DNA of 46,973 nt from a virus, in IMG/VR virus record IMGVR_UViG_3300048914_000039, positions 1-46,973 of that record. One strand, written 5' to 3'. The translations under genes were made by a program, and so were the position numbers. Below are positions 24,388 to 41,618 of this stretch, piece by piece. Positions within the stretch are counted from its first letter, which is position 1, and each line of letters starts with the position of its first letter. The notes beneath the pieces are model-generated. The model worked only from the letters and a program-made list of their open reading frames with translations, did not search any database and was not told the DNA's origin.

Positions 24388-24416
24388 ATTATAGCACCGG
24401 TACAGTATCTTGTCAA
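24388..24416 (-). promoter_or_regulatory. Perfect leftward late promoter for tail genes
   Basis: On the minus strand: TTGACA, AAGA at the start of the 17-bp spacer, TGC at its end, TATAAT followed by T. Both hexamers match consensus exactly. It starts transcription of the tail completion, tube, chaperone and tape measure genes independently of the head genes. Confidence 0.88.
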
Positions 24417-35414: not shown

Positions 35415-35443
35415 ATAATAACATTGAGTAACAGTCTTGTCAA
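35415..35443 (-). promoter_or_regulatory. Leftward late promoter for portal and head genes
   Basis: On the minus strand: TTGACA, AAGA at the spacer start, 17 bp ending in TGT, TATTAT followed by T. Placed between the large terminase and portal genes, it gives head genes extra transcription independent of the terminase. Confidence 0.82.
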
Positions 35444-35473: not shown

Positions 35474-36910
35474 TTATAGGGAGGGGATTGGTGAGGGTTG
35501 AGTGTTTACAGAGAGAGTAAATGATGGAATTGTTATCTGCTTCATAACAGCCTTGCACGCAGTGGCAGTCGCATCCCACATATCATCCTTCTGATTTCTG
35601 TTGCCGTCGATATAATCCTCAAGCTCGTTGAACCACATTTCATTCCACTCGCCGCGAACCACCCTGACTAATCCTGCTTCAGCTAGGGAGAGGAAAGGCT
35701 GCATCCTAGAGAGTTTGCCAGAGTGGCCTGTTACTACCTCTGTGCGGGCGTCTACGCCGTTCTCCACAAGAGTTTTAATGAAGAACATATTAGCTGCGGC
35801 ACCTGCTGCGCCGGGGTCTTTCGGGATGAATACCGGAACCTGCTGCCCTAATTCATCTCTGTCCTTAATAGCACAACGGGCTACTTCCTCCAGAACACCG
35901 TGTGTAAGCTTCCTGTATCGCTCGACATGCTCTACATAATAGAACCCGTCTTTACCTTTAGACACTCGTACAGTTGCCGTCCAGTCGGGATTAGGATTAC
36001 TTTCAGATCGAAGTGTGCTTGCTAAATCCATTCCACGTGCGCGATTACTAACCTGCATAGGAACTTTATCGACAATCTCACACCAATCTCGTTTAAAATA
36101 ACCAGAGGACTCTTCCTTGGCAAACCACGATCCAAGCAACAAACGCTCACGCTCAACACGCTTAAGGTTCTCAAGACGAGCCACGTATCCGGGGTTGAGC
36201 ACCTTCATACGAGGGTTGTCCCGAATAGTGGCGCTGATAAACGTATAGCTCTGTGGACGTACGCCCGGATAAGTTTCAATCAGTTCTTCTTTGGTATCAG
36301 CAAAAACCATCGTACCGTTGTATGAAGCGTAGTAACGCTCAACGCCAGAACGCTCGGGAATCGGAATACCCGTCTCTTGGTCAAGATACCAATTCACGAA
36401 TGGCATCAGGTGCGAGTCTCGACGCGGGTTACAGGTTGCGATAAGCTGATGCGGCCCTTTGGCCTGAGAACGAATACGAGACTCAAGATATCGAATCTGC
36501 ACGTCCGTGTGGTTCTGTGCCTCGTCAAATACGACTAGGGAGAATTGTCCACCGTCGTAGTTAGAAATATCTCTATCTGCACCACAAACTTTGAACTGCA
36601 CCTGCGCCCCGCTAGGAAAAACTGCGGTCATTTGTGGGTGCGTCTTAAACTTCGCACCAAATTGTTTCCACATCTTCTCAGCTTCTTGGTACAATCCCCC
36701 TGCCTGAGAAAGTTGCGTAGAAGTTTCGCGGATAAAAACCGCACGGAAATTTGGATCGTCCTTGTACTTAAGTACCAACAAAAGCGCTTGGTGGGATTTC
36801 CCACAACCAGCGCCGCCGCCAAAGATGATATAATTAGACTTGCAGTCTAGGAAGCGCTTGTGTGTAGGTGAGTCTGGACCAAGCACTATCTTCTGTTTTT
36901 TATTAGTCAT
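35474..36910 (-). CDS. Terminase large subunit
   Basis: About 478 residues. The ATPase domain has Walker A GGGAGCGKS (residues 31-39), the adenine-motif region RAVFIRETSTQLSQ, Walker B LVVFDEA (Asp129/Glu130) and the coupling segment LIATCNPRRD. The nuclease domain has acidic residues in ARGMDLASTL and in the closing QKDDMWDATATAC. It pumps DNA into the head and cuts it. I start at ATG 36910 with AAGGG before it; the frame extends to 36943 without support. Confidence 0.95.
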   Translation of the reverse strand: MTNKKQKIVLGPDSPTHKRFLDCKSNYIIFGGGAGCGKSHQALLLVLKYKDDPNFRAVFIRETSTQLSQAGGLYQEAEKMWKQFGAKFKTHPQMTAVFPSGAQVQFKVCGADRDISNYDGGQFSLVVFDEAQNHTDVQIRYLESRIRSQAKGPHQLIATCNPRRDSHLMPFVNWYLDQETGIPIPERSGVERYYASYNGTMVFADTKEELIETYPGVRPQSYTFISATIRDNPRMKVLNPGYVARLENLKRVERERLLLGSWFAKEESSGYFKRDWCEIVDKVPMQVSNRARGMDLASTLRSESNPNPDWTATVRVSKGKDGFYYVEHVERYRKLTHGVLEEVARCAIKDRDELGQQVPVFIPKDPGAAGAAANMFFIKTLVENGVDARTEVVTGHSGKLSRMQPFLSLAEAGLVRVVRGEWNEMWFNELEDYIDGNRNQKDDMWDATATACKAVMKQITIPSFTLSVNTQPSPIPSL

Positions 36911-36923
36911 AGTGCCCTTAATA

Positions 36924-36962
36924 TAAACAACAAAAAGCCACACAGCATTTCTGCCGTGCAGC
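36924..36962 (-). terminator. Strong rho-independent terminator before the large terminase gene
   Basis: Eleven-bp stem GCTGCACGGCA / TGCTGTGTGGC (three G-T wobbles) with a GAAA tetraloop, then TTTTTGTTGTTT. It ends 14 bases before the terminase ATG and would stop most leftward transcripts arriving from the tRNA region or the candidate RNA. Confidence 0.85.
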
Positions 36963-37094
36963 CTCCTATAAATTGGTGAGTGGGCGCCACGCTACCTTGC
37001 CCCACTTCTCTAGCGTCCATACTGACGCCCTCAGCCTCTTGCCCGCTTTCGCGGTTATGCCCAATCGGAGCAAAGTCCCTCTAGGCAAATTATT
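36930..37094 (-). ncRNA. Candidate ~165-nt structured RNA just upstream of the large terminase gene
   Basis: No gene of normal size fits here. Read leftward, the region has a TATAAT (37101-37106) followed by a chain of stems: TGCCTA / TGGGCA (37082-37087 with 37058-37063), CCGC-GAAA-GCGG (37043-37054), GCGTC-N6-GACGC (37013-37028), AGTGGGC pairing with GCCC-C-ACT (36979-37006), and a strong terminator. The whole looks like a self-contained small RNA. No good -35 is visible, and I match it to no known RNA family. A 37-codon ORF (36907-37020) is an alternative reading. Confidence 0.4.
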
Positions 37095-37108
37095 ACGTGT
37101 ATTATAGG

Positions 37109-37357
37109 TCAGCCCACGTTGGCTTCTTGACCGTCCGACGATGGTGCTACAACCAGATTCTGTACAGAGCCATCAGCTTGCTTCAGCCCACAATATTGAC
37201 AACGCATCTCGACATCTCGTGGACACTTGATACAAGTTTTGTCTTTCTTACCGAAGATTGCATCGAAATTACTATAATACTTATCCCAACCAGTTCCACG
37301 CGGGCGTGACCCCTTACCTGCGTCCGCATAAAATGTCTTAGTATTGTTATCACTCAT
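37109..37357 (-). CDS. Small hypothetical protein with a CxxC...CxxC zinc-ribbon-like core
   Basis: 82 residues. The core DKTCIKCPRDVEMRCQYCG has two CxxC pairs, suggesting a zinc-bound fold, preceded by a basic segment (AGKGSRPRGTGWDKYYSNFD). Start ATG 37357 lies one base after the endonuclease stop, with GGAG nine bases before it. Its place among terminase genes suggests a DNA-binding packaging or transcription accessory, but nothing in the sequence proves it. Confidence 0.65.
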   Translation of the reverse strand: MSDNNTKTFYADAGKGSRPRGTGWDKYYSNFDAIFGKKDKTCIKCPRDVEMRCQYCGLKQADGSVQNLVVAPSSDGQEANVG

Positions 37358-37358
37358 A

Positions 37359-37946
37359 CTATGGCTCCACAACATATTTCATTAATGCCAAATAGCACTC
37401 ATCAGATATCCTACCAACGTATCTGCCAGCAACCTCTTTGACTTGTTTCTCTTTTCTCGTTTTATACGCTTGAAATGCGATTTCTGGAGTGTCGTAGTAT
37501 CCAATATGTGTTGCTATACCGTCTACACGAATAGATGCCCTAAACTTCTCTCTGCGCTTATTCCAAGCGACTCCCACGGGGTAAATGCCTTTGTTAGACT
37601 TGTTATGAGTAAACAACGAATTAATTTGTGTGGGCACAAACACACAAGTGTCGGGAGAGTAGACCTTTCGCCCTTTACCCAAAATGTCTTTATCGATGTG
37701 CCATCCGTCCTCAAGATAACCTTTTTGGTAATTAGCCCAATCAGCAAATTCTGCAAAATCCTTGAAACCTACTGTACAACCTTCGTAGTTCGGATTGTTC
37801 TTGCGAAAATAGGTATCTTCTGTACCTCTACGACGTAACGCTTGCCAAAAATTTCCTGCTCGGGTCAGCATTTGCACACCGTTGATCGATTTTGACTGCA
37901 CCCATGCCCCAAGCTCATCCTTGAAGTCTTCAATAGTTCTCTTCAT
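37359..37946 (-). CDS. Homing endonuclease of the AP2/HNH-related type
   Basis: 195 residues from ATG 37946 (AGGAATAAAA before it); the frame stays open to 38063 through a hairpin-rich non-coding stretch, which I exclude. The central part (YEGCTVGFKDFAEFADWANY ... GRKVYSPDTCVFVP) is like the nuclease core of phage AP2-type homing proteins, and the end (AWNKRREKFRASIRVDG...THIGYYDTPEIAFQAYK) is an AP2-like DNA-binding domain. It is clearly paralogous to the protein at 45643-46542. Confidence 0.82.
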   Translation of the reverse strand: MKRTIEDFKDELGAWVQSKSINGVQMLTRAGNFWQALRRRGTEDTYFRKNNPNYEGCTVGFKDFAEFADWANYQKGYLEDGWHIDKDILGKGRKVYSPDTCVFVPTQINSLFTHNKSNKGIYPVGVAWNKRREKFRASIRVDGIATHIGYYDTPEIAFQAYKTRKEKQVKEVAGRYVGRISDECYLALMKYVVEP

Positions 37947-38099
37947 TTTTATTCCTGTCTGAATATTATTGGTGTAGGCTATCCACTGAGACAGCAGTGG
38001 AAGGTGTTGCAACACGGTTCGCTCTACGTTGAATGCCGTCTTTCCGGCTGTCAACCTGTGCAAGCAGGATTTGATCTTCAGGTAGCGACCTTCAGATTC
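37947..38099 (-). other. Run of five short hairpins between tRNA-Gly and the endonuclease gene
   Basis: Within 109 bp lie AGGT-CGCT-ACCT (38080-38091), CCTG-N6-CAGG (38055-38068), GCCG-N6-CGGC (38035-38048), the palindrome GTGTTGCAACAC (38004-38015) and CCACTG-N6-CAGTGG (37983-38000). They are spaced every 20-30 nt. No tRNA or gene is recognisable. Confidence 0.5.
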
Positions 38100-38175
38100 T
38101 GGAGCGGGATGTCGGTTACGATCCGACTACCTCTTACTTGGAAGGAAAGCGCTCTGCCGATTGAGCTAATCCCGC
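38100..38175 (-). tRNA. tRNA-Gly (anticodon TCC)
   Basis: 76 nt including a coded CCA. Acceptor GCGGGAT / ATCCCGC, D stem GCTC / GAGC, anticodon loop CTTCCAA (TCC, Gly), T stem GTCGG / CCGAC. Odd points: a T-T mismatch in the anticodon stem and an ATCGTAA T-loop in place of the usual TTCRANN. Confidence 0.88.
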
Positions 38176-38334
38176 ATTAATAGGGTGCCTCGCTGTAGCT
38201 ACGAGGACTTTGGCGATAGACCGGGTATTCAGCCCGTCACTATCTACCGCTACGACTTGTACGTATTCACAGCGTTTTGTGTGACAGCCTCGAATCATGC
38301 CGAGGTGACTAAGCTCGGTCTTCGCTACACTTTC
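38176..38334 (-). other. 159-bp structured spacer between the two tRNAs, possible tRNA relic
   Basis: Too long for a normal spacer and no complete tRNA fits. It contains GATAG-TGA-CGGG-loop CTGAATA-CCCG-GT-CTATC (an anticodon-arm-like hairpin with a GAA triplet), TACG-TACAAGT-CGTA, CGCTGTG pairing with TACAGCG, and CCTCG-N8-CGAGG. The 3' end of tRNA-Thr (GCGAGGCACC) is repeated exactly next to tRNA-Gly (38184-38193). Confidence 0.45.
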
Positions 38335-38408
38335 TGGTGCCTCGCAACTGAATTGAACAGTTGATGCCGGGTTACAAAGCCGGAGTTATACCACTTAACT
38401 AGCAAGGC
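38335..38408 (-). tRNA. tRNA-Thr (anticodon TGT)
   Basis: 74 nt with coded CCA. Acceptor GCCTTGC / GCGAGGC (one G-T), D stem GTTA / TAAC, anticodon loop TTTGTAA (TGT, Thr), T stem AACTG / CAGTT with T-loop TTCAATT. The top anticodon-stem pair is C-C. Confidence 0.88.
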
Positions 38409-38598
38409 AAAAATCATTTTAGGAGGCACTCAATCCCGCAAATCTTCCGAGGAGGGGCAGCGTCATTGCAGAAGAATGCCTTCTAAAACGGCCTCTTGTG
38501 AAAGCCGATTGCCAATTCTGAAAGAGCTAAAGGCGTGCTCTAAATATTGATGCACCTGATGGAGTGGTGTGTCAGTGCGTTCAATCTCAACAAAACAA
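38409..38598 (-). other. ~190-nt structured leader between the stable-RNA promoter and tRNA-Thr
   Basis: It follows a strong promoter and precedes tRNA-Thr. Stems seen: GCACTGA / TCAGGTGC with one bulge (38553-38579), AGAGC-N9-GCTCT (38525-38543), CGGC / GCCG near 38490-38508, and a long pairing of TTAGAAGGCA (38478-38487) with TGCCTCCTAA (38420-38429), nine of ten bases. No tRNA T-loop is present, so it is either a separate RNA or decayed tRNAs. Confidence 0.4.
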
Positions 38599-38627
38599 AT
38601 TGTAGCAGCAGATTAGATTCTTGTCAA
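38599..38627 (-). promoter_or_regulatory. Leftward promoter of the tRNA / stable-RNA cluster
   Basis: On the minus strand: TTGACA, AAGA at the spacer start, 17 bp ending in TGC, TACAAT followed by T. The -35 overlaps the stop codon of the gene at 38624, so it reads directly into the RNA cluster. Confidence 0.85.
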
Positions 38628-38995
38628 ATCTTATTTACGTTACCCATATCTACAACTTGAACGTCCTGCGCAAACTCTGGTGAAATGTTGTCAAAATCCA
38701 ACGCTGGAGTATTGTCATCATCTGCCGTACTACCCTGCCCGATAAGACCTGTCACTTTAATATCCAGCAACATTGCTTTAATCTCGTCAGCCCTTTGAGC
38801 CTCTGCACTATCCATGTAGAACTTCAGCAGCTTCTCAGCAGCGATCATCCGTACACGCTCGTCCTCGCTAGACAGCCCTGCTTCCAGCACTTCCACAGCC
38901 TTCTTACTAATCTTATTAAGCTGCTTCACCAGCTTCGCAAGCTCGTGAGCCTTCTTAAATAGTGGCTTTGGCGTTGCACTCACCACATCAGTCAT
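38624..38995 (-). CDS. Helical protein, possible terminase small subunit
   Basis: 123 residues, almost all helical: KKAHELAKLVKQLNKISKKA then LSSEDERVRMIAAEKLLKFY, with an acidic tail (STADDDNTPALDFDNISPEF). Size, first position in the late operon and a helical oligomerisation-like segment fit a small terminase, though I see no clear HTH, so the assignment is inference. Start ATG 38995 has AAGGAGG before it; upstream in-frame sequence overlaps the late promoter. Confidence 0.6.
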   Translation of the reverse strand: MTDVVSATPKPLFKKAHELAKLVKQLNKISKKAVEVLEAGLSSEDERVRMIAAEKLLKFYMDSAEAQRADEIKAMLLDIKVTGLIGQGSTADDDNTPALDFDNISPEFAQDVQVVDMGNVNKI

Positions 38996-39025: not shown

Positions 39026-39054
39026 ATCATAGCACTTGTCACTATTCTTGTCAA
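39026..39054 (-). promoter_or_regulatory. Leftward late promoter at the early/late junction
   Basis: On the minus strand: TTGACA, AAGA, 17 bp ending in TGC, TATGAT followed by T. It drives the gene at 38624-38995 and abuts the rightward early promoter, the two -35 boxes being only nine bases apart. Confidence 0.82.
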
Positions 39055-40168: not shown

Positions 40169-40915
40169 ATGCGCAAAACACATCGCGGACGCAATGCCCA
40201 GCATCCGGTTGAGAAAGAAGAACGTGTGATTAAAGACAAGTTCAAGGAGCAACGCGCAGAAAAACTAGAAGCGAAACCAATCTACCCTCTCAATGATCGC
40301 CAGCGGGAGTATTTTGAGGCTATTCGCGCCAAAGACCTTATCGTCGCTACAGGCTATGCGGGCACCAGCAAGACATTCGTAGCAACAAGCCTTGCAGCAG
40401 ATGCGTTCTACAGGGGTGAATGCCAACGCATTGTCCTTGCACGACCAGCGGTGTCTAACTCGCAGAGTTTGGGTTTTTTCGCAGGCGACTTGAACCAGAA
40501 GATGTCTGTATGGTTGATGCCTCTGCTATCTGTGCTGTATCAGCGCCTTGGTCGCACTGTTGTTGACCTCGCAATCCAAGAAGGTAACATTGTTATGCAG
40601 CCTCTTGAGACTATCAAAGGTATGAGCTACGGCAAAGGCACTTGGGTGATTGCAGACGAGGTGGAAGACTGTACGATTGAAGAAATCAAAAGTATTGTTA
40701 CTCGTAACGGCGGGGCAAAGATGATCTTGTGCGGTGACGTACTTCAGTCTGCACTGCATGAGAAAAGCGGACTTGCAATCTTCGCTGACATTCTCTACAA
40801 CTCACGTCCCCTGCAAGAATACGCCACATTGATCGAGTTTGATTCTTACGACTACATTGTTCGCGGTAAGCTTTGCAAGAGTCTTATTGTAGAATTTGAT
40901 AAGGCGGGGTATTAG
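40169..40915 (+). CDS. PhoH-like ATPase
   Basis: 248 residues. The PhoH P-loop is GYAGTSKTFVATSLA, followed by ARPAVSNSQSLGFFAGDL (the family's R-P-x-V signature), Walker B WVIADEVEDCTIEEIKSIVT, and MILCGDVLQSALHEKSGL. PhoH proteins are predicted RNA/nucleotide-processing ATPases common in phages; their exact job is not settled. Start ATG 40169 follows TGAGGATCAAT; the open frame back to 40118 lies in the leader. Confidence 0.93.
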   Translation: MRKTHRGRNAQHPVEKEERVIKDKFKEQRAEKLEAKPIYPLNDRQREYFEAIRAKDLIVATGYAGTSKTFVATSLAADAFYRGECQRIVLARPAVSNSQSLGFFAGDLNQKMSVWLMPLLSVLYQRLGRTVVDLAIQEGNIVMQPLETIKGMSYGKGTWVIADEVEDCTIEEIKSIVTRNGGAKMILCGDVLQSALHEKSGLAIFADILYNSRPLQEYATLIEFDSYDYIVRGKLCKSLIVEFDKAGY

Positions 40916-40916
40916 C

Positions 40917-41618
40917 ATGAGCTATATCGGATTGAGATTTGGTAGGTACGTAGTAAAGGAAAAGATAACGTATAGAAAGTATTCTTGCGTATGTGACTGT
41001 GGTACTGTAAAAACGGTAAGTATTTATCATCTCAGAGATGGGAAAATCAGAAGTTGCGGATGCTTGCATAGCGAGACTCTTTCAAAGAGAAACTCAAAAC
41101 ACGGTCTAAGTGAGTCATCTGAATATGCAGCTTGGTGCAAAATAAAAAGAAAAACAACGAATCCCGACGATGACGATTGGTACTTGTATGGTGCACGAGG
41201 TATCAAGATGTCTGAAGAGTTTTATAACTCCTTTGAGTGTTTCTATAGCTACTTAGGGCCGAAACCTACAGATGGGGTAAGGTATTCTGTAGGACGTATT
41301 GATAACAACAAAGGGTACGAACGAGGTAACATTCGTTGGGAAACTGACTCACAGCAAGCTCAAAACCAGAGAAAAAGGTGCACCAACAAGTCTGGCGAAA
41401 CAGGTGTGTTACTTGCCACAAAGGTTATCAATGGACGCAAGTATTCTGCTTGGGTGGCTTATTGGTGCCCTGTAGTAGGTGTCAAAAGAACTAAAAACTT
41501 TAGTACGAATAAATATGGGTATGATGAAGCTTTTAAGATGGCAACTGATTATCGAGCAAAAATGATTGAAGAGCTTAACCGACTTGGTGCTAGTTACGCC
41601 GAGACACATGGTAAATAA
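40917..41618 (+). CDS. AP2/HNH-type homing endonuclease
   Basis: 233 residues, one base after the PhoH stop. N-terminal Cys cluster (YSCVCDCGTVKTVS then SCGCLHSE) is typical of free-standing phage endonucleases. A core with YLYGARGIKMSEE and YSVGRIDNNKGYERGNIRWE resembles an HNH-like nuclease part. The C-terminal NKSGETGVLLATKVINGRKY and NFSTNKYGYDEAFKMATDYR region is AP2-like. Probably a selfish insertion in the PhoH-ClpP operon. Confidence 0.82.
   Translation: MSYIGLRFGRYVVKEKITYRKYSCVCDCGTVKTVSIYHLRDGKIRSCGCLHSETLSKRNSKHGLSESSEYAAWCKIKRKTTNPDDDDWYLYGARGIKMSEEFYNSFECFYSYLGPKPTDGVRYSVGRIDNNKGYERGNIRWETDSQQAQNQRKRCTNKSGETGVLLATKVINGRKYSAWVAYWCPVVGVKRTKNFSTNKYGYDEAFKMATDYRAKMIEELNRLGASYAETHGK

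Follow-up and report, generated by a model that had tools for sequence, protein, structure and literature searches.

A covariation-supported RNA family upstream of the terminase large subunit gene of tailed phages

Introduction

What occupies the short stretch of DNA that precedes the terminase large subunit gene (terL) in the viral record IMGVR_UViG_3300048914_000039? A preliminary description of this DNA (46,973 nucleotides, all of which was analyzed and is called the window here) proposed that positions 36924–37106 hold a self-contained structured RNA, with its own −10 element, at least four stems, and a terminator. A packaging-linked RNA and a regulator of terminase expression were both considered. 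We asked whether such an RNA is conserved, where it begins and ends, how it is transcribed, and which roles best fit its distribution.

Results

Fold and boundaries of the element

Over most of its length the stretch contains no protein-coding gene, and the terL ATG lies directly downstream, as had been described. The minus strand, which is that of terL, folded from 37108 to 36912 with a predicted energy of −70.9 kcal/mol (z −3.33), and 1 of 200 shuffled sequences was equally good. In contrast, the plus strand of the same stretch gave a z of only −1.1. The stems of the preliminary description (H1, the GAAA-capped H2, P2, and P3) and the terminator were all present in the minus-strand fold, between 37087 and 36930 (Table 1). 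The stability of the 75-nt core alone was unexceptional, with a mean z of −0.4 among 29 homologues. As these thermodynamic scores are unremarkable, the case for an RNA is carried by covariation and not by energy.

Alignment with relatives moved one boundary. The element is a compact structured RNA that ends in a terminator before terL, but its 5′ end lies about 50 nt further upstream than first drawn, near a conserved GGUUGYA box at ~37154, where it overlaps the 3′ end of an 82-codon ORF. Four relatives (L012, L013, L032, and L039) lack this ORF upstream of the RNA or have something else in its place. Within the added segment, a 5′ hairpin presents the loop sequence ACGUG (37119–37115), which pairs with CACGU (37099–37095) to form a pseudoknot. 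The proposed −10 string, TATAAT, is indeed found at 37106–37101. However, it is part of the 3′ pseudoknot strand CUAUAAUACACGU, for which relatives read CUAAUUCUCGU, AAAUACUCGU, and others, and it is not a conserved promoter element. At the other end, about 20 nt separate the terminator from the terL start (36910) in the window. In most relatives the RNA is likewise followed by a hairpin of the terminator type and a T tract, often of different sequence.

Table 1. Features of the element and of its surroundings in the window
Feature	Position	Strand	Remarks
terL, terminase large subunit	35474..36910	-	Pfam Terminase_6N 5.8e-24, Terminase_6C 5.9e-12
Intrinsic terminator, long stem, UUUUUGUUGUUU	36925..36969 (stem 36969-36930)	-	seen in fold and relatives
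75-nt core	36969..37043	-	junction GAGGG, P2, P3, short closing helix; unit common to all relatives
P3 hairpin, loop AAGGUAGCGUG	36979..37006	-	double changes in 7 of 8 pairs
P2 hairpin, loop AGUAUG (37023-37018)	37013..37028	-	double changes in 4 of 5 pairs
GAAA-capped hairpin H2 (CCGC/GCGG)	37043..37054	-	tetraloop and stem vary in relatives, pairing retained
Hairpin H1 (UGCCUA...UUGGGCA), inner GGA/UCC pairs	37058..37087	-	CG/UA/UG and AU/GC exchanges
5′ hairpin GGUCA-AGAA-GCC / GGC-UGACC	37107..37132	-	loop in pseudoknot
Full structured RNA element	36971..37154	-	184 nt before terminator; 22 homologues aligned
82-codon ORF (MSDNNTKTF...)	37109..37357	-	3′ end over RNA 5′ end
tRNA-Gly(UCC)	38100..38175	-	ARAGORN and Rfam
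tRNA-Thr(UGU)	38335..38408	-	ARAGORN and Rfam
Predicted sigma-70-type promoter TTGACA-17-TACAAT	38599..38627	-	11/12; overlaps terS stop; equivalents in relatives
Probable small terminase gene terS	38624..38995	-	by position only; no Pfam hit

Covariation across homologues

Homologues were collected by a TerL search (17 loci) and an alignment query (30 loci), with further loci added by searches for terminator and core patterns. They are viral contigs of metagenomes, many of 80–93 kb, and represent about 28 related phage contigs. The full element from 22 homologues was aligned by sequence only with MAFFT (alignment A2) and evaluated against a 37-pair structure that included the pseudoknot. Standard pairs filled 89.2% of the cells. 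Changes on both sides were seen in 20 of the 37 pairs (12.3 in shuffles) and amounted to 94 double-change cells (27.1 in shuffles), and sliding the partners by 1–3 columns cut pairing to 28–44%. The variable pair of the pseudoknot was A-U in 12 sequences and U-A in 10, inside a CGWG/CWCG frame.

The core behaved similarly. Another sequence-only MAFFT alignment (A4) was 91.9% paired, with 50 double-change cells compared to 13.4 when shuffled. The alignment of 29 loci to our covariance model R1, which is itself fitted to the structure, was 94.4% paired, with 90 double-change cells compared to 21. Altogether 12 of the 16 core pairs had changes on both sides. The changes in these counts are not all independent events, as several seed contigs came from related metagenomes and the contigs are partly redundant. 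Compensatory changes, the check proposed in the preliminary description, were present in all three alignments. Cells with G-U outnumbered those with A-C by 64 to 8, which points to selection on RNA read in the same direction as terL.

An all-against-all scan of alignment columns brought up a candidate contact between the P2 and P3 loops (U37019–A36993 and G37018–U36994 in the window). Among 28 distinct sequences, the pair formed by the fifth P2-loop base and one P3-loop base was UA in 13, AU in 11, and GU in 1 (one exception, two gapped), and its neighbor was GU in 23 and GC in 2 (two exceptions, one gapped), a signal open to inflation by sequence relatedness. The pairing was maintained in the distant members L040, L043, and L079, while L041 has a gap at this position in the model alignment. 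The junction and the P3 loop contain invariant unpaired nucleotides. The alignments show that compensatory changes maintain the helices, the pseudoknot, and the P2–P3 loop contact, and on this evidence it is the folded shape, and not any protein, that selection preserves. The pseudoknot and the loop contact, both of which covary, had been missed in the preliminary description.

Range of the family

No match emerged when the region was compared by blastn with 50,697 named phages. The named phages closest in TerL (~42% identity) infect Pseudomonas and belong to Nankokuvirus and Pakpunavirus. R1, a model with rough E-values, was built on 18 sequences and scored the window core at 76.6 bits. Outside its seed it detected L040, L043, L046, and L079 at 4e-8 to 1e-10 and L213 at 9e-11. 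Each of 16 phage records held one significant copy, and that of L068 had an extra hit at E 0.18. R1 searches of PAK_P3, wV8, a barbavirus, and a pakpunavirus found none. With filters off, the best E was ~1 against PAK_P3, KPP10, wV8, HK022, and the T4 tRNA region.

Members with the full form (pseudoknot, H1, and H2) extend out to L039 (TerL 63%), while L040, L041, L043, L079, and L213 appear to have the core only. This distribution suggests a core that is probably essential, with the 5′ parts added to it. A TerL-based scan starting from L041 recovered only L041. We also tried a loose pattern scan of genome contigs and abandoned it as uninformative, since it returned at least 118 matches in unrelated bacteria; among the matches listed, only two passed a crude hairpin filter, and both looked coding.

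Rfam scans of the window at gathering and permissive thresholds reported only tRNAs, and the earlier impression that the element fits no known RNA family holds for Rfam 15. The phi29 packaging RNA model found nothing in the window at the gathering threshold, and relaxing the limit to E 10 gave no match in positions 36900–38700 of the window, in L003, or in L041. The GOLLD and ROOL models likewise had none up to E 10 in the same window positions, L012, L003, and L041. Judged by its alignments, the element is a new, conserved family of structured phage RNAs, absent from Rfam 15, ranging in size from a core of ~75 nt to a full form of ~190 nt.

Genomic context

In all loci where terL was covered, the RNA lay on the terL strand, just upstream of either terL or a homing-endonuclease gene followed by terL. 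About every second locus had a homing-endonuclease gene between terminator and terL. Many relatives have HNH/AP2-like genes in this position, and in L007, L013, and L037 such genes have their own perfect sigma-70 promoter. The window has a 195-aa ORF between tRNA-Gly and the RNA (37359–37946, minus strand) that looks like an AP2-type homing endonuclease by eye but has no Pfam hit, and a 240-aa ORF (40896–41618, plus strand) whose AP2-domain match is weak and falls short of the Pfam cut-off. In several relatives terL is split near codon 33 by a small group I intron (L009 3319–3538, L012 6052–6269, and L013 1535–1752; RF00028 at 78–87 bits for the three tested), and length gaps similar to those of intron-bearing terL occur in L007, L011, L036, L037, and L039. 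The window terL is uninterrupted.

Two arrangements depart from that of the window. Seven loci (L003, L006, L031, L060, L063, L066, and L078) carry a second structured module of ~130 nt between core and terminator (L003 5827–5935; GAGCG...CGCUC-UUAAA-AUAGG...CUAGUC). It has a likely pseudoknot whose strands covary by eye (GUGC/GCAC vs GACGA/UCGUC), and searches for it elsewhere placed it only in this RNA family, between core and terminator. The most distant members, L079 and L213, have no terminator, and their core stands 15–20 nt before the terL start, adjoining the ribosome-binding site.

Upstream, the interval between the promoter at 38627 and the terminator holds further structured spacers besides the two tRNAs. 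Relatives have other tRNAs here (Ser, Pro, Tyr), and some loci have small genes or homing endonucleases. In L012 this stretch consists of two tRNAs and the RNA without a clear gene. The interval as a whole resembles a stable-RNA operon. A long hairpin recurs in the region (window 38410–38530, minus strand; L009 1255–1350; L040 3590–3655; L213 1498–1575). Its sequence varies and the hairpin seems retained by eye; the upper part, CCUCCU / CCCCUCCUU(A), is like the 3′ end of 16S rRNA (anti-Shine-Dalgarno). The spacer after tRNA-Gly (window 38020–38100, minus strand; CUGAAGGUCGCUACCUGAAG...) is conserved in L001 and L012. A hairpin loop of this spacer has GGUCGCUACC in common with T4 rnaD (NC_000866; L230 1554–1672), possibly by chance.

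Promoters and the supply of terL

Promoters are reported here as sigma-70 consensus matches, not as mapped starts. The RNA had been described as self-contained with its own promoter. We abandoned this view, as the −10 is not conserved and the window has no sigma-70 site of at least 10/12 near the element. Instead, a strong and conserved promoter is predicted at the terS stop (38627), 1.6 kb upstream, and is probably the start of a tRNA/RNA operon that would end at the element's terminator. A second near-consensus site, TTGACA-17-TATGAT, precedes the terS-like gene at 39054; downstream of the 38627 promoter, the first such site comes after terL, at 35443. Every locus with at least ~1 kb of upstream sequence had an upstream promoter of at least 10/12, except L063 (1.1 kb), and a second promoter after terS was usual among them. 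Where terminator and terL abut, the gap contained no site of at least 9/12. With no promoter in between, the window terL should be reached only by read-through. Elsewhere in the window, perfect TTGACA-17-TATAAT sites (12/12) occur at 24416 (minus strand), 4433 (plus), and 45366 (plus), and their recurrence suggests that the phage relies on host sigma-70 polymerase.

Discussion

We tentatively favor, at somewhat short of an even chance, the reading that the element is the 3′-terminal stable RNA of a tRNA/RNA operon, acting outside terL, with a terminator that throttles terL incidentally. Transcription would start at the terS stop (~38592 in the window), pass the two tRNAs and the other structured spacers, and stop at the terminator near 36930. 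Maturation beside the tRNAs would free the element as a stable small RNA, which may act on something other than terL, probably a host RNA or protein. Having no promoter of its own, terL would be expressed by read-through only, which would hold terminase at low levels compared with the stable RNAs. We favor this stable-RNA reading because of the dedicated promoter, the tRNA neighbors, the terminator, the inserted modules, and the precedent of PAK_P3. Against it stand the complete synteny with terL wherever terL was covered, the absence of an R1 match in the PAK_P3 small RNAs, and the layout of L079 and L213, which fits a cis-acting leader better.

Such a leader is the main rival and a real possibility, though we rate it below the stable RNA. 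The core would sense or bind a partner, be it a small molecule, RNA polymerase, or a protein of phage or host, and set terminator read-through or terL translation, so that regulation of terminase, as raised in the preliminary description, is possible. This reading includes a put-like variant in which polymerase passes the terminator without a dedicated protein. Its appeal lies in the constant position ahead of terL, with or without an intervening homing-endonuclease gene, in a core that adjoins the terminator or the terL ribosome-binding site (L079, L213) like cis-regulatory RNAs, in a terL without its own promoter where the terminator abuts, and in a core that stays while the terminator sequence changes. 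The leader is harder to reconcile with the ~130-nt module that parts core from terminator in seven loci, with the homing-endonuclease genes that part terminator from terL in about half, and with a dedicated second promoter and tRNA neighbors, which suggest an RNA made for itself; nor is pairing between core and terminator apparent by eye. Compared with a riboswitch, a terminator or ribosome-binding site does follow the core, but inserted modules or genes break the coupling in many loci. A bolder and unlikely form is a new autonomous RNA that binds the host transcription machinery co-transcriptionally and so enables read-through into terL. If true, apparently lytic large tailed phages would have a put-like, protein-free late switch of unrelated sequence and fold.

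Other roles appear more remote. A structured spacer without a function of its own, whose stems protect or process tRNA-operon transcripts or guard the terL mRNA, would agree with the many further structured spacers in the interval. We consider it improbable, as invariant unpaired nucleotides and a covarying pseudoknot and loop–loop contact exceed what a generic hairpin needs. The location between the terminase genes invites a packaging RNA, a terminase cofactor, or a DNA-level packaging site, which we rate as slightly less probable still. A terminase-specific packaging RNA is unlikely, because it should, like an autoregulatory site, change in step with TerL, and the two evolve discordantly. 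L047 and L001 agree by 98% in the RNA, but the terminases behind it share only ~40% identity (TerL of L047 is 39.5% and that of L001 96% identical to the window's), and the window and L001, at 96% in TerL, share only 68% in the RNA. The G-U pairs indicate selection on RNA and not on DNA, and neither the phi29 packaging RNA nor another Rfam family matched. Finally, that the 37-codon frame across the stretch encodes a short protein instead of an RNA is scarcely credible. The P2 loop of the window does have an ATG after GAGGG, but most homologues lack it, and stops and length changes of 1–3 nt fall at differing places; the frame, mentioned in the preliminary description, is not conserved as protein. 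We accordingly rejected the idea that the P2 loop contains a conserved start codon.

Returning to the stable RNA, the closest parallels are analogies only, and on the tests made the element belongs neither to the known phage stable RNAs nor to put RNA. The P. aeruginosa phage PAK_P3 (Nankokuvirus) produces two abundant late small RNAs, sRNA1 and sRNA2, between a terS-like gene and terL, with sRNA2 between tRNAs (PMC4933390). Its TerL is 42% identical to that of the window and its small RNAs occupy the equivalent interval near tRNAs, but by eye its sRNA2 resembles a degenerate tRNA. T4 rnaD and rnaC (species 2 and 1) are also 3′-terminal stable RNAs of a phage tRNA operon, one that contains a homing endonuclease gene, yet they have no R1 match and a different genome place, not upstream of terL. 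GOLLD, conserved in its 3′ part and variable in its 5′ part (PMC12286853), and ROOL are phage-encoded structured RNAs near or around tRNAs. These RNA nanocages are far larger (GOLLD often >800 nt) than the 75-nt core and ~190-nt full form seen here, a difference that by itself speaks against membership. The put RNA of HK022 is ~70 nt with two interacting stem-loops and lies upstream of terminators in the phage transcript (PMC9378689). Our core has two hairpins with a covarying loop contact, but its sequence differs, it precedes terL where put follows early promoters, and the HK022 genome held no significant R1 match (best E ~1).

The element adds a covariation-supported family to a short list of structured RNAs from phages that includes T4 rnaC/D, the PAK_P3 small RNAs, GOLLD, and ROOL. 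With a 75-nt core, a loop contact of two bases, and a defined pseudoknot, it is compact enough for mutate-and-compensate genetics, which GOLLD and ROOL are not. The placement of terL behind a terminator, without a promoter of its own, suggests how the dose of terminase could be set in these phages.
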